Below are positions 34,238 to 40,730 of a stretch of DNA of 64,000 bases, piece after piece. The position numbers and the translations under genes were made by a program. How positions within the stretch are numbered: the first letter of the stretch is position 1; every line of letters begins with the position of its first letter. Source of the stretch: Gemmatimonadota bacterium (GTDB lineage Bacteria; Gemmatimonadota; Gemmatimonadetes; Longimicrobiales; Gaopeijiaceae). The stretch lies in the NCBI GenBank assembly GCA_003248075.1, contig QJYK01000076.1:1-64000 (forward strand). Direction: 5' to 3'. The notes below the pieces were generated by a model. It was not told the DNA's origin and searched no databases. It saw nothing but the letters and a program-made list of their open reading frames with translations.

Positions 34238-34421
34238 CGATCGGACAGGGGACGTGAGCTAGGAGCGCGGGGCCGCCAGGCGATCCCCGCAAAGAAGGAC
34301 CGGGGTTCTGGAGAGCGCTCGGTGTACGCCAGGCCGATGCGAGCCGTTAACTTTCCCGGCCTGCGTCCGCCCCGCGCCACGCGGTGCGTCGCCGCGACCG
34401 GAGCTTCCCCGAACCCGCCGC

Positions 34422-36230
34422 GTGTCCGTGCGTCTCGACCAGATCCGCAATTTCTGCATCGTCGCTCACATCGACCACGGCAAGTCGACGTTGGCCGATC
34501 GTCTGCTGGAGCGCACGGCCACGCTCGACAAGCGTCAGATGCGCGAGCAGGTGCTCGACGACAACGAGCTGGAGCGTGAGCGGGGTATCACGATCAAGCT
34601 CCACGCCGTCCGCATGGCCTATCGGTCCGTCGACGGCCGGGACTACGAGCTCAACCTCATCGACACCCCGGGGCACGTGGACTTCACGTACGAGGTGTCC
34701 CGCTCGCTGGCGGCCTGCGAGGGGGCGATCCTCGTGGTGGACGCGACCCAGGGGGTGCAGGCTCAGACCCTCTCGAACCTGTTCCTGGCACTGGACGCCG
34801 GTCTCGAGATCATTCCGGTCCTGAACAAGATCGACCTGCCCGGCGCGGAGCCCGAGCGGCGCCGGGACGAGGTGGCGGATCTTCTGGGCGTCGAGCCCGG
34901 ATCTGTTCTCCTCGCCAGCGCGAAGGAGGGCATCGGCGTCGACGAGGTCCTCGAGGCCGTGGTCGCGCGGGTGCCGCCGCCCAGCGGCGACCCGGAAGCG
35001 CCCCTGCGCGCCCTGATCTTCGACTCGTACTACGACAAGTACCTCGGGGCTGTCCCCTCGGTTCGCGTGGTCGACGGAGCGATCAGGCCCGGCATGCAGA
35101 TCACCTTCGGCAACGTGGATCGGCGCTATGAGGTGACCGAGGTGGGGTACCTGCGACTCGGCCGCAAGCCGCAGCCCCAGCTCACCCCGGGCGAGGTCGG
35201 GTACGTCGTGGCCGCCATCAAGGAGGTGACGGACACCCGCGTGGGGGACACCATCCTCGACGCAGACCGCCGCGCGTCGGAGCTTCTGCCCGGCTATCAG
35301 GAAGCGCGACCCATGGTATTCGCGGGGCTCTACCCCACCGCCTCCGACGACTACGAGGACCTGCGCGACGCTCTGGAGCGGCTCAAGCTCAACGATGCGA
35401 GCCTGCACTACGAGCCGGAGACCTCGGTGGCTCTCGGCTTCGGATTCCGCTGTGGGTTCCTGGGGCTCCTGCACATGGAGATCGTCCAGGAGCGGCTCGA
35501 GCGGGAGTTTGGCGTAGACCTCATCACCACGGTCCCGAACGTGGAGTACCACGTACGGCTCACGAACGGGGAGGAGAGTCGAATCGAAAGCCCCACGGCG
35601 ATGCCCGACGCCGGCCGCATCGATTCGATCTCCGAGCCCGTGGTGAAGGCCCATATCGTGTGTCCGTCAGAGTATATCGGGAACGTGCAGAAGCTCTGTT
35701 ATGACCGGCGTGGCGTGTACCGAGGGATGGCCTATCTGGACCCGCAGAGGGTCGAGATGAACTTCGAGCTTCCGCTCTCGGAGATCGTTCTGGACTTCTA
35801 CGATCGTCTGAAGAGTGGAACCCGCGGTTATGCCGCGCTCGACTACGAGTTCCTCGAATATCGCGAAGATGCGCTCGTGAAGCTCGACATCCTCGTGAAC
35901 GGTGATCCGGTCGACGCCTTCAGCGTCGTCATCCACGAAGACAAGGCCTTCGTCTATGGACGGGATCTGGTTCGAAAGCTCAAGGACCTCATTCCCCGTC
36001 AGCAGTACGAGGTGGCTCTGCAAGCCGCCATCGGCAACAACATCATCGCCCGCACGAACGTGAAGGCGCTCCGGAAGAACGTGACGGCGAAGTGCTACGG
36101 AGGCGACATCACCCGGAAGCGGAAGCTCCTCGAGAAGCAGAAGGAGGGGAAGCGCCGCATGAAGCAGGTGGGCTCTGTGGAGATCCCCCAGGAAGCGTTC
36201 CTGGCGGTACTGGATCTGTCCGGCGAATGA
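34422..36230 (+). CDS. lepA: elongation factor 4 (LepA GTPase)
   Basis: A 602-residue translation GTPase with [10 protein letters not shown]-loop, RGIT switch, DTPGHVDF and NKIDLPGA, a C-terminal domain with [21 protein letters not shown], and the LepA-specific tail. It acts on stalled or elongating ribosomes. The start is GTG 34422. Its stop overlaps the next start as ATGA. Confidence 0.97.
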
Positions 36231-37249
36231 GGCAGGGGGCCGCAGCGGACACGAGGCGTCACGTCGTCCGCGCGCCCAACCACCTCGGCGACGTCGTGAT
36301 GGCGCTGCCGGCGCTGCGTGCGGCGCAGGTGGACGTGGTGGTCCGGGGGTGGCTGGCGCCGCTGCTGGAGATGGCGGCGCTGGGTGTCCAGGTGATCCCG
36401 TTGGATCGAGGCTGGGTCGGGTGGGGGGCGGCCGTGCGCCGCCTGCGCCGAGAGGGCTACGAGCGGGGCACCCTGCTCACGCCGTCCTTCAGCGCGGCTT
36501 GGCTCTTCCGCTGGGGCGGGGTCGGACGCCTTCGCGGCACGGCCACCGACGGTCGATCCTGGCTCCTCACCGAGCGCGTCGGGCGAGGGGTGCTTGGCGG
36601 ACTCCATCGGGTGAACCAGTACCGTCTCCTCCTGGACCAGGAGCTCGATCCAGAGCCGTCGCTCCCCCACCTGACCCCGCCAGAGGCCGTCGTCGCCTCC
36701 TGGCGTGCGCGCGTCGGTGCCTCCGGCGCTCCCCTCGTCGGACTTTTTCCCGGCTCCAACGCCCGGGCGCGGCGCTGGCCGACCGATCGCTTCGGGGCCG
36801 TCGGGCGTGCCTTGGTGAGGCATGGCGCCCGTGTCGTCGTGATCGGCGGCCCGGTGGAGCGGCCGTTGACGGCCGCGGTGGCCGCGGCTGTGCCGGGGGC
36901 GGTGGACGCCGGTGGCGCAACGGATCTGGTCGGGCTGGCGGCGCTGCTCTCGATGTGCGATCTCCTTGTGACGAACGATTCGGGCCCCATGCACGTTGCG
37001 GGAGCTGTCGGCACGCCGACCGTCACCCTGTGGGGTCCCTCCGACCCGGCGGAAGTCGGTCCACCCGGCCCGCGGCACGTCCGCGTGGACGGGGGCCCGC
37101 TTCCATGCCGGCCTTGTTTCAAGAACACGTGTCCCCGATCGGGCCCGGGGACCCGGATCGCCGAGGCCCACGAGGAATGCATGCGTCTGATCACGATCGA
37201 GCGGGTCTCGGAGGCGGCCACCCGGTGCCTCGAGGGGATGAGCCCATGA
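36227..37249 (+). CDS. glycosyltransferase family 9, heptosyltransferase-like
   Basis: A 340-residue enzyme of the WaaF/WaaC type that adds heptose to lipopolysaccharide core. Features are the N-terminal [53 protein letters not shown] and the Cys-rich end [10 protein letters not shown]. The substrate is inferred from family only. ATGA overlaps link it to lepA and to the ROK kinase downstream. Confidence 0.85.
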
Positions 37250-38223
37250 GCTCGTGGGTCGTGGGCGTGGACATCGGGGGGACGAACGTCGTGGTGGGGC
37301 TGATCCCCACCGCGGGGGGTCACCCCGTATCGATTCGTAACCGGGCGACCGCCTCGTTGGGAAGCCAGGACGAGGTGGTCGGGCATGTGGGGCGCATGAT
37401 CGAGGAGGTGATCGAGCAGGGCGTCGCCAATGGGGGGGGTAGCCGCGCGGACGTGGTCGGGATCGGCATCGGCACCCCGGGTCCTCTCGACCTCGATCGA
37501 GGCGTGGTGCTGGACGCCTTCAACCTTGGGTGGAGGGACTTCCCGCTTCGGGACCGCCTCGCGGAGGCGACCGGCCTCGCCACCTCCCTGGACAACGACG
37601 CGAACTGTGCGACCTGGGGCGAATACTGGCTTGGCGCCGGCCGGGGTGCACGTACGCTGGTCGGAGTGACCCTGGGCACCGGGATCGGTGGCGGCGTCAT
37701 TCTGGACGGGCGCCTCGTCCACGGGGCATCCGCCAGTGCAGGCGAGGTCGGGCACATGACCATCGACTTCACGGGCCGTCGCTGCAAGTGCGGCAACTAC
37801 GGGTGCCTCGAGGCCTACGCCTCGGGCCCGAACATTGCAGCCCGGGCGCGTGAGGGGGTGGAGGCCGGCGCAGAGTCGATTCTGCTCGAGCTCGCCGGGG
37901 GGGAACTGGAGCGCATCACTGCCGTCACGGTCTACGAGGCTCTGCTACAGGGTGACACGTACGCCCTCGAGGTGATGACCGAGACGGCCAAGATCCTGGG
38001 GGCAGGGGTCGCGAATCTGGTGAACGTGCTCAATCCGGATGTTGTGGTGATCGTCGGAGGCGTGACCCGCGCGGGCGAGCACCTGTTCGCCCCACTTCGC
38101 TCGGAGGTGAGGCGTCGGGCCTTCCGAACCGCCGAGCGCGTGTGCCGGATCGTGCCCGGGGACCTCCCGGAGACGGCCGGCGTCATCGGGGCGGCCGGTT
38201 TGTTCCTGAGTCACCAGCGGTGA
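37246..38223 (+). CDS. ROK-family sugar kinase (glucokinase-like)
   Basis: A 325-residue kinase with DIGGTNVVVG phosphate loop, catalytic Asp118 in LDNDANCA, and the ROK zinc motif CKCGNYGCLE. Glucose is the likely substrate; other hexoses or N-acetyl sugars are possible. The ATG overlaps the upstream stop (ATGA). Confidence 0.9.
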   Translation: MSSWVVGVDIGGTNVVVGLIPTAGGHPVSIRNRATASLGSQDEVVGHVGRMIEEVIEQGVANGGGSRADVVGIGIGTPGPLDLDRGVVLDAFNLGWRDFPLRDRLAEATGLATSLDNDANCATWGEYWLGAGRGARTLVGVTLGTGIGGGVILDGRLVHGASASAGEVGHMTIDFTGRRCKCGNYGCLEAYASGPNIAARAREGVEAGAESILLELAGGELERITAVTVYEALLQGDTYALEVMTETAKILGAGVANLVNVLNPDVVVIVGGVTRAGEHLFAPLRSEVRRRAFRTAERVCRIVPGDLPETAGVIGAAGLFLSHQR

Positions 38224-39254
38224 GATCCCGACAGCCAGCCGACTGGATGTCCCCTTCCGGGGCTGCCGGAGGCGGGGGCAGGACCCTGGGCGCCCTGGGC
38301 ACCCTCGTCTGGGACCGGATCGTCGAGCGCGACCGGAGAGCGGGGCCCGTGGAGGAGTGGGGTGGGATGGCGTACGCCCTGTCTGCGCTCCGTGCGGCTC
38401 TCCCGGACGATTGGAAGGTGCTCCCCATCGTCAAGGTGGGGCGGGACCTGGCCGAGGAGGCGTTCCGGTTCCTTCGCGAGATCCCGGGCACCGACGTGTC
38501 CGCGGTGGTCGTGGTCCCCGAGCCGAACAATCGGGTGGAGCTCCGATACACGAGCGCCGAACGCCGCACGGAGCGCATGAGTGGAGGGGTCCCGCCCTGG
38601 ATCTGGCCCGAGCTGGCACCGCTGGTCGACCTTTGCGACGCGCTCTACGTCAACTTCATCTCGGGCTTCGAGATGGAGCTCCCCACGGCGAGAGCGCTGC
38701 GTGCCGGATACGGCGGTCCATCCTACGCGGACCTGCATTCGCTGTTCCTGGGGATCACAGGGGTCGGCGAGCGGGTCCCCCGCGAGCTGCTCGACTGGCG
38801 CGACTGGCTGCGCTGTTTCGACGCCGTCCAGATGAACGAGGATGAGTTCGAGCTGCTGGGCCTGGCCTCGGGCGATCCCTGGCGCCTCGCCGCGGACGCG
38901 CTCGGACCCGAGCTGAGGCTCATGACCGTGACCCTCGGGCCCCGCGGAGCGGCGTATGTCGCTCAGGCCGACCTGGCGCCGGACCCCCTCACCTGGCGCG
39001 GCCGGCGTGGGGTCGAGCCGGCGCTTCGGGCGCGCTCGGCCCGCGTGCCTCTCGATGGGCTCGCACGGGAGGGCGATCCCACCGGGTGCGGGGATGTCTG
39101 GGGTGCGACGTTCTTCGCGCGCATCCTGGCCGGCGACGGCCTCGAGGCAGCGATGCAGGAGGCGAATCGCCTCGCGTCGCGCAACGTCACCCATCGCGGT
39201 GCGCGGGGGCTCTTCCGACACCTCACCGGGCGCCTGTCCCACGTGGAGGAGTAA
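38220..39254 (+). CDS. PfkB-family carbohydrate kinase
   Basis: A 344-residue ribokinase-fold kinase. The C-terminal signature DPTGCGDVWGATF contains the catalytic Asp. The N-terminal glycine-rich region (GALGTLVWDRI) and sugar-lid segments are present. The substrate is unknown; this superfamily also includes adenosine and heptose kinases. GTG 38220 overlaps the ROK stop (GTGA). Confidence 0.82.
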   Translation: MRSRQPADWMSPSGAAGGGGRTLGALGTLVWDRIVERDRRAGPVEEWGGMAYALSALRAALPDDWKVLPIVKVGRDLAEEAFRFLREIPGTDVSAVVVVPEPNNRVELRYTSAERRTERMSGGVPPWIWPELAPLVDLCDALYVNFISGFEMELPTARALRAGYGGPSYADLHSLFLGITGVGERVPRELLDWRDWLRCFDAVQMNEDEFELLGLASGDPWRLAADALGPELRLMTVTLGPRGAAYVAQADLAPDPLTWRGRRGVEPALRARSARVPLDGLAREGDPTGCGDVWGATFFARILAGDGLEAAMQEANRLASRNVTHRGARGLFRHLTGRLSHVEE

Positions 39255-39255
39255 G

Positions 39256-40152
39256 GTGCAGGTCATTCCCGTTCCCGGATCGCTGGACGCCCAGACCGTC
39301 GACGCGCTCCTGGACCTGGTGCCGCCGGAAGGTACCGCCGGCCGAATCCTCTTCGACGCGCGGCACGTTCGCTGGGTCGACCCGAACGGGATGGTGGGGC
39401 TCGTGGTCGCAGGGACTGTGGCCCGTGATCGCTCGGACACGCTCCCGCGCCTGGAGTTGCCCGAGAGCGCGGACGTACTGTCCTACCTGGGGCGCATGGC
39501 GTTCTTCGATTCGGTCGCGGGCGTGTTCGAGATCGAGCAACGAACGCCCCGCCGCTCCGGCGGCACGTCCGACGTCCTGCTGGAGATCACCCCGGTCCAG
39601 GCCAACTCCGACGTGCACGAGGTGGTGGACCGCGTTCAGTCCCGCGCCGGCGCCATCCTGTCGTCCAAGCTCGGTTACCCGGGAACTTCGGTGGTCCAGT
39701 TCAGCGTCATCCTCTCCGAGGTGTGCCAGAACATCGTCGAGCACGCGGACGGGCCAGGCTGGGTCGCGGCGCAGGCCTACAACTGGGCGCGCCGCCTCGG
39801 GCGCTGGGTGGTGGTCATCGCGGTCATGGACATCGGGCGGGGCTTTCGCGGCTCGCTGGCCGAAGAGCACTCGGCGCGATACGGAGATCGCTGGAGCGAC
39901 GCCACCGCACTCGAGGCCGCCTTCCTCCACGGACTGACGCGGTTCCCCGACTCGGGGCGTGGCCAAGGCATCCAGCAGATCCGCAGGCAAGTGCAGCGCT
40001 GGAACGGAGCGATCACGATCCGGAGCGGGACGGCACGCATCGGCCAGGTTCCGGAGTGGGACGATACGCCCCCCCTCGTGGAGGGGCTGGCACCTTTCCC
40101 TGGATCACAGATCAGCATCGTCCTTCCCGCGAAGGAAGGAGGACAGACGTGA
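39256..40152 (+). CDS. STAS-like plus HATPase_c fusion protein
   Basis: A 298-residue protein. Residues 1-95 look like a STAS/MlaB fold, but the usual DSSG phosphorylation motif reads DPNG (42-45). Residues about 120-298 are a GHKL ATPase: the N-box has Glu155, Asn159 and His163 in SEVCQNIVEH, the G1 box is DIGRGF (192-197) and the G2 segment is GRGQGIQQIRR (234-244). These are features of anti-sigma/partner-switch kinases. A STAS-like protein follows with GTGA overlap. It is in an operon with sugar kinases, which may be its input. The start is GTG with GGAGGAG upstream. Confidence 0.75.
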   Translation: MQVIPVPGSLDAQTVDALLDLVPPEGTAGRILFDARHVRWVDPNGMVGLVVAGTVARDRSDTLPRLELPESADVLSYLGRMAFFDSVAGVFEIEQRTPRRSGGTSDVLLEITPVQANSDVHEVVDRVQSRAGAILSSKLGYPGTSVVQFSVILSEVCQNIVEHADGPGWVAAQAYNWARRLGRWVVVIAVMDIGRGFRGSLAEEHSARYGDRWSDATALEAAFLHGLTRFPDSGRGQGIQQIRRQVQRWNGAITIRSGTARIGQVPEWDDTPPLVEGLAPFPGSQISIVLPAKEGGQT

Positions 40153-40730
40153 CCGACCTACCTCTGGATCCGATCGCCATCGACGTCGGCGACCTGCTGC
40201 AACGGACCGTGGCGTCTCTCTATTCGCACCTGGTCACGAGGCCCACGGGGCGGGCCGTGCGCATGGCGATCGAGACACAACTCGCCGAGGCCGGCGGGCG
40301 TTCCCTGTCTCTGATCGACCTCTCGGAGGTGACGATCCTGGATTTCTCGTGCGCCGACGAGGTGGTGGCGAAGCTCCTGCAGAAGCATCAGGGAGATGCC
40401 GGGCTCGAAGCCATCTTCGTGTTCCGTGGCGTGCACGAACCGCATCGCGACCAGATCCAGGTCGTGCTCGAGCGGCAGTCGCTCGCCGTCGTGGCCGAGA
40501 CCGGGCCGGGACGATTCGAGCTGCTCGGCGCCCGATCGCCGGACGAAGACCTGGCTTGGCGATACCTGGAGGATCAGGGGTTCCTGGGGCGTGACGAGGC
40601 CCATGCCCTCTGCGGCGCCTCGGATCCCGTGCGCGCTTTCGAGGCCCTCTCGGAGCGGGGCTTGGCATTCCGGAGTCCCGTGACGGGCCGGTACCACGCA
40701 CTCAGCCGCCTGGTGGAGCACCTGACCTGA
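40149..40730 (+). CDS. STAS-like domain protein, partner of the STAS-HATPase
   Basis: A 193-residue protein. Residues about 30-120 have a STAS-like pattern (LSLIDLSEVTILDFSCADEV), with DFSC at 65-68 in place of DSSG, so the usual phosphoserine position is Phe. The C-terminal 65 residues are helical and may form a small winged-helix domain. The GTG start overlaps the preceding stop. It is probably the binding partner of the upstream ATPase, by analogy with partner-switching systems. Confidence 0.65.
   Translation: MTDLPLDPIAIDVGDLLQRTVASLYSHLVTRPTGRAVRMAIETQLAEAGGRSLSLIDLSEVTILDFSCADEVVAKLLQKHQGDAGLEAIFVFRGVHEPHRDQIQVVLERQSLAVVAETGPGRFELLGARSPDEDLAWRYLEDQGFLGRDEAHALCGASDPVRAFEALSERGLAFRSPVTGRYHALSRLVEHLT

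Follow-up and report, generated by a model that had tools for sequence, protein, structure and literature searches.

A probable CapK/CapS-like kinase-substrate pair encoded beside lepA and sugar kinase genes in Gemmatimonadota

The window, a 64,000-nucleotide stretch of contig QJYK01000076.1 from a Gemmatimonadota bacterium, contains two adjacent genes, here termed P1 and P2, at the tail of a tightly coupled gene series. P1 (39256-40152, 298 aa) and P2 (40149-40730, 193 aa) both start with GTG, are open throughout and overlap by the 4 nt GTGA at 40149-40152. Further upstream, the junctions are ATGA for lepA/GT9 and GT9/ROK, GTGA for ROK/PfkB and a 1-bp gap for PfkB/P1, all in consistent frames. 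ORF sizes, overlap and coupled series had been given in the same form by an earlier note on this DNA. The following features were assigned:

34422-36230, forward strand: lepA, elongation factor 4 (TIGR01393, 955 bits)
36227-37249, forward strand: GT9 glycosyltransferase (PF01075, E 2.3e-35)
37246-38223, forward strand: ROK-family glucokinase-like gene (PF00480, E 1.2e-66; in 30 of 40 loci)
38220-39254, forward strand: PfkB-family kinase directly upstream of P1 (PF00294, E 8.6e-8; adjoins P1 in 35 of 40 loci)
39256-40152, forward strand: P1, CapK-like STAS-GHKL protein, predicted Ser kinase (ORF, hhalign, AlphaFold2 pLDDT 93)
39256-39540, forward strand: P1 STAS-like domain, aa 1-95, with loop D42-P43-N44-G45 (4hyl profile match, 77-locus alignment)
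39568-40131, forward strand: P1 GHKL ATPase/kinase domain, aa 105-292 (43-row alignment, Foldseek)
40149-40730, forward strand: P2, CapS-like STAS and winged-helix protein, predicted substrate of P1 (ORF, hhalign, AlphaFold2 pLDDT 91)
40149-40529, forward strand: P2 STAS domain, about aa 1-127, DUF4325-like (Foldseek, DUF4325 matches of members)
40347-40349, forward strand: P2 Ser67 codon TCG, predicted phosphoacceptor aligned with CapS Ser54 (76 of 76 and 8 of 8 sequences)
40530-40727, forward strand: P2 winged-helix domain, about aa 128-193, poorly conserved (AlphaFold2, Pfam of members, Foldseek)

Upstream of lepA, at 34238-34421 of the window, TTGATC was followed by GGTTA(A/T)CTT-like elements, common to many relatives. 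These AT-rich blocks look like -35/-10 elements of a vegetative promoter for the operon. No operator palindromes recurring across relatives were found upstream of lepA or after P2. The next conserved gene after P2 was CGS-like, resembling enzymes of Cys/Met metabolism, and not a PIN nuclease. PADLOC detected no defence genes among ten neighbours of P1/P2; the neighbours include lepA, GT9, ROK, PfkB, CGS, RocA, NifU and Mrp.

The description of P1 in the earlier note as an intact fusion of a STAS-like domain and a GHKL ATPase was borne out. Pfam matches to STAS_2 and HATPase were weak and under the curated cut-offs. The AlphaFold2 model showed a STAS-like fold followed by the GHKL domain. A P1 profile matched the STAS protein 4hyl over residues 4-86 (E 0.0033). 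CheA P4 was the closest Foldseek match to the ATPase domain. P43 and G45 of the loop were invariant in the alignment of 77 loci, as were E155, N159, H163, D192, G194, G196, G236 and G238 of the GHKL domain in the 43-row alignment. PADLOC matched P1 to DrmA (E 2e-13). An ORF in another genome (L207:403-1734, G012:C43) encodes STAS, GHKL ATPase and DUF4325 in one protein, in the order of P1-P2, and matched the DrmA model PDLC02567 with 125 bits at model positions 105-395. The model therefore seems to include an ATPase/DUF4325 region, to which the match of P1 was put down, and DrmA was rejected as its identity.

P2 itself had no Pfam match, with no DUF4325 above the curated cut-off, and a PDB sequence search returned nothing useful. 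AlphaFold2 predicted a STAS domain and a winged helix, with helices at 131-169. Foldseek matched the first domain to RsbS 6jhk and SpoIIAA 1tid and the second to the MarR-like 3lfk. Other P2 members showed MarR/TrmB/IclR-type Pfam matches in the winged helix, and five of 53 members weakly matched DUF4325 (PF14213; E down to 0.0089). P2 shares the Ser-x-Ala-Asp-Glu motif with DUF4325 and differs from it by the added winged helix and the missing Pfam match. Mean column identity was 0.44 in the winged helix versus 0.64 in the STAS domain. The loop at 65-68 reads DFSC, in the context D-[F/Y]-S-C-A-D-E; both it and DPNG at 42-45 of P1 are real, as previously read. The C-terminal winged helix had been missed, as had the retention of the Ser at which CapS-family proteins are phosphorylated.

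Of 395 Gemmatimonadota genomes, 371 contained a match to P1 and 372 one to P2 (about 94%), nearly always in single copy, so the pair is not a chance occurrence. Both were near-universal in the class Gemmatimonadetes and adjacent in almost all genomes. They were jointly absent from families f8, f10 and f11 and from scattered genomes of other families, some of which (G034, G140, G264 and G172) are well assembled. A profile search for a divergent P1 in genomes lacking it, run without a positive control, matched none. Second, distant P1-like matches with 30-34% identity were seen at L081 (G036:C35) and L082 (G070:C1); the L081 ORF comprised a P1-like ATPase and a C-terminal end, with no P2-like neighbour in the short stretch seen. 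A scan of all species with the P2 pattern gave 359 matches, the best 80 of which were Gemmatimonadota or subgroups, except one MAG labelled Gammaproteobacteria. Viral contigs yielded no relative. A core, vertically inherited module of the class Gemmatimonadetes is the best reading of P1-P2.

Neighbourhoods were compared in 40 loci from eight families. P2 followed P1 in all 40, PfkB preceded P1 in 35, lepA was upstream in 34, ROK was present in 30 and CGS downstream in 26. The order lepA-(GT9)-ROK-PfkB-P1-P2 recurred across families, which supports the earlier idea of a conserved module beside sugar kinases and lepA. Among 77 loci from 73 genomes, with automatically chosen starts, P1 and P2 overlapped in 64, the commonest overlap being 4 nt (43); for PfkB and P1, a 4-nt overlap was seen in 40 of 69 loci. 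Members of family f3 (L091, L092, L121) had a cyclophilin gene between P1 and P2, once together with a cupin-like gene. The pair was kept without PfkB in five of the 40 loci and without ROK in ten, one of them at a contig end. Genome-wide, PfkB had no match in G015, G262, G027 and G009, all with the pair, and G034 showed a PfkB match and had lost the pair. The pair is thus conserved as a unit, with sugar kinases as frequent but not obligatory neighbours. A specific sugar or lepA role, which the earlier note had considered plausible, was not established.

Relatives outside the phylum were identified by tblastn of P1 against plasmids, which gave Nostoc and Acinetobacter matches, each with a winged-helix gene of about 180-200 aa directly downstream. 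A BLAST chain led from P1 to the Acinetobacter plasmid protein (E 6e-5) and on to the CapK of IncHI2A plasmids (WP_001567866; E 6e-25), whose CapS is WP_001567865. With the Acinetobacter protein as query, the same pair was found in Enterobacteriaceae IncHI2A, Vibrio and Sphingobium plasmids. Several plasmid pairs stand upstream of multiubiquitin/ThiF or SAVED/nucleotidyltransferase genes. The Nostoc protein also matched Marinitoga phage MPV1, where the partner in a similar pair is a short STAS protein; a STAS-wHTH or STAS gene thus lies just downstream of the plasmid and phage relatives of P1. In MPV1 (L220, 33883-40350), the CapK/VapK-like kinase and its STAS partner adjoin a serine integrase. 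On plasmid pSHV1 of Sphingobium herbicidovorans (L219), a CapKS-like pair is flanked by a RES/Xre toxin-antitoxin pair on one side and a multiubiquitin/ThiF operon on the other.

Chambers et al. (EMBO J 2026, PMC13373217) introduced CapK-CapS as a DNA-damage switch of anti-phage operons, and their paper makes no mention of Gemmatimonadota. In this system ssDNA activates the kinase CapK, whose phosphorylation of Ser54 frees the repressor CapS from DNA (PMC13373217). The DNA bound by CapS lies upstream of immune operons such as Bub and CBASS, and CapK/CapS adjoin an immune operon in 348 of 443 cases (PMC13373217). Profile comparison with hhalign linked P1 to plasmid/phage CapK-like proteins with 99.8% (E 3.4e-28, 275 columns) and P2 to CapS-like proteins with 97.5% (E 4.9e-12, 152 columns), in each case over both domains. 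RsbW and RsbV extracted from relatives of the window's genome served as control and gave 3.2% for P1 versus RsbW and 5.2% for P2 versus RsbV. The pair is therefore CapKS-like and not RsbWV-like. The P2-CapS link is one of profile to profile; searched by itself against the PDB, the P2 profile missed CapS at E<=1.

P1-P2 resemble CapK+CapS in that a STAS-GHKL kinase gene is followed directly, in the same order, by a gene for a STAS-wHTH protein, with full-length profile similarity and with both the catalytic Asn and the phosphoacceptor Ser kept. P1 Asn159 aligned with the catalytic CapK Asn218 in 77 of 77 sequences, and this Asn is required for CapS phosphorylation (PMC13373217). P2 Ser67 aligned with CapS Ser54 in all 76 Gemmatimonadota and all eight plasmid/phage sequences. 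In CapS the phosphosite S54 is Asp+2 in T-D52-S53-S54-F (PMC13373217); its position was checked on WP_001567865.1, the IncHI2A CapS crystallised in that study, where T-D-S-S-F has its second Ser at residue 54. SpoIIAA/RsbV-type sites are at Asp+1, as in SypA, with S56 in L-D-S56-S57-G (PMC10120452). Ser67 was ruled out as a SpoIIAA phosphosite, as the SypA primers put that site at Asp+1. Asp+1 was Pro in 77 of 77 P1 sequences and Phe/Tyr in 69 of 76 P2 sequences, the others having Leu, Cys, Arg or Ile. The phosphoserine had earlier been regarded as lost in both proteins. This is correct for the SpoIIAA-type Asp+1 site, but wrong in its consequence for P2, because the CapS family uses Asp+2 and this Ser is invariant in P2.

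Differences from CapK+CapS concern sensing, output and genomic setting. P1 starts with the STAS domain and has no N-terminal HTH, a part of CapK that was dispensable in a reporter assay (PMC13373217). Opposite the ssDNA residue CapK Trp68 (VapK Phe54), MAFFT placed a gap in P1. Read without the gap, the equivalent position 9 was Ser/Thr in 64 of 77 sequences, with no aromatic among the residues listed. Without the Trp68/Phe54 aromatic, P1 lacks the one activation route that is known. The CapS DNA contacts N145, K151 and G169-G170 (Gly-Gly wing) were absent from P2, an acidic residue (Glu or Asp) replacing K151 in 43 of 76 sequences, and the median net charge of the recognition helix was -1 versus +3 in CapS. 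Because these residues are missing, ssDNA sensed in the manner of CapK is improbable as the signal, and binding to a TTAA-type operator is improbable as the output. Judged from the residues, the switch chemistry appears intact and the features of the known input and output appear gone. P1/P2 are also core chromosomal genes beside lepA and sugar kinases, with no immune operon, and, as they overlap, leave no operator gap of the kind found between capK and capS.

Taken as a whole, P1-P2 are likely to be a kinase and its substrate, akin to CapK/CapS, and a core, vertically inherited module of the class Gemmatimonadetes. Full-length homology, fold, catalytic Asn, acceptor Ser, neighbourhood and translational coupling were observed here and support this assignment. 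That P1 phosphorylates P2, and with what effect, we infer from CapK-CapS. In such a mechanism, the GHKL domain of P1 would bind ATP, and a signal other than that of CapK would occupy the STAS/GHKL interface of P1, upon which P1 would phosphorylate Ser67 of P2. Phosphorylation would break the STAS-mediated self-association of P2 or its hold on a target and so switch the output. Binding of P2 to some DNA site is slightly favoured over binding to a protein. SpoIIE-type phosphatases, present in 28 of 29 genomes searched, could reverse the phosphorylation of P2; G015 had the pair without such a phosphatase.

A phosphorylation-free scaffold or sensor, with P1 as a P2-binding ATPase and Ser67 as a structural residue, as the matching Ser of DUF4325 may be, is an unlikely alternative. 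A matching Ser does occur in the DUF4325 domain of L207 (SSSFADE), and the STAS loop of P1 itself cannot be phosphorylated at Asp+1. To our knowledge, no phosphorylation of this Ser in DUF4325 domains, such as that of L207, has been reported. Against a scaffold, P1 retains the catalytic Asn that CapK needs, and Ser67 corresponds to the residue modified in CapS (PMC13373217). A classical anti-sigma/anti-anti-sigma switch of the RsbW/RsbV or SpoIIAB/SpoIIAA type, acting on a sigma factor, has the GHKL kinase and STAS folds in common with P1/P2, and NCBIfam gave a weak RsbA-type match. The relatives searched, however, carry a canonical RsbV (DSSG intact)-RsbW-SpoIIE cluster at one separate locus (G000:C207:49731-52201; L225, L243), against which P1/P2 scored only 3-5%, no significant profile match. 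The acceptor Ser is at Asp+1 in those systems and at Asp+2 in P2, where Asp+1 is mostly Phe/Tyr and, in P1, Pro. The STAS domain is fused into the kinase P1, and the winged helix of P2 has no counterpart in RsbV. Such a sigma-factor switch is accordingly very improbable.

Likewise very improbable is an arrangement like VapKSC, in which P2 would inhibit a partner enzyme and phosphorylation would free it. Like VapK, P1 is a CapK-like kinase without N-terminal HTH (PMC13373217), and VapS is likewise a STAS partner with a conserved Ser/Thr. The loss of CapS-type DNA contacts in P2 also means that its output may be protein binding. P2 nevertheless has a full winged helix, and the equivalent of VapK Phe54 is absent from P1. 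No VapC/PIN gene lies near P1-P2, the CGS-like gene taking the next conserved position, and no neighbour matched PADLOC. Near-universal occurrence as a core module is, moreover, unlike typical toxin-antitoxin modules.

More tentatively, and as a possibility rather than an expectation, the CapK/CapS-like pair may be a class-wide core regulator belonging to a switch family known only in mobile immune and toxin-antitoxin operons, with the kinase chemistry kept, the ssDNA sensor and operator output replaced and a link to sugar phosphorylation or translation. If true, the two forms, mobile and core, would mark the CapK-CapS core as a reusable module whose inputs and outputs can be exchanged. The occurrence of a single-copy relative next to lepA and sugar kinases in almost all of the class points to a housekeeping role. 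Comparison of the two forms separates the conserved kinase core from the changed sensing and output parts. For annotators, the pair, whose second member has no Pfam assignment, now has a name and a Ser that can be tested, and the RsbV-RsbW-SpoIIE cluster provides a ready partner-switching control for the class.
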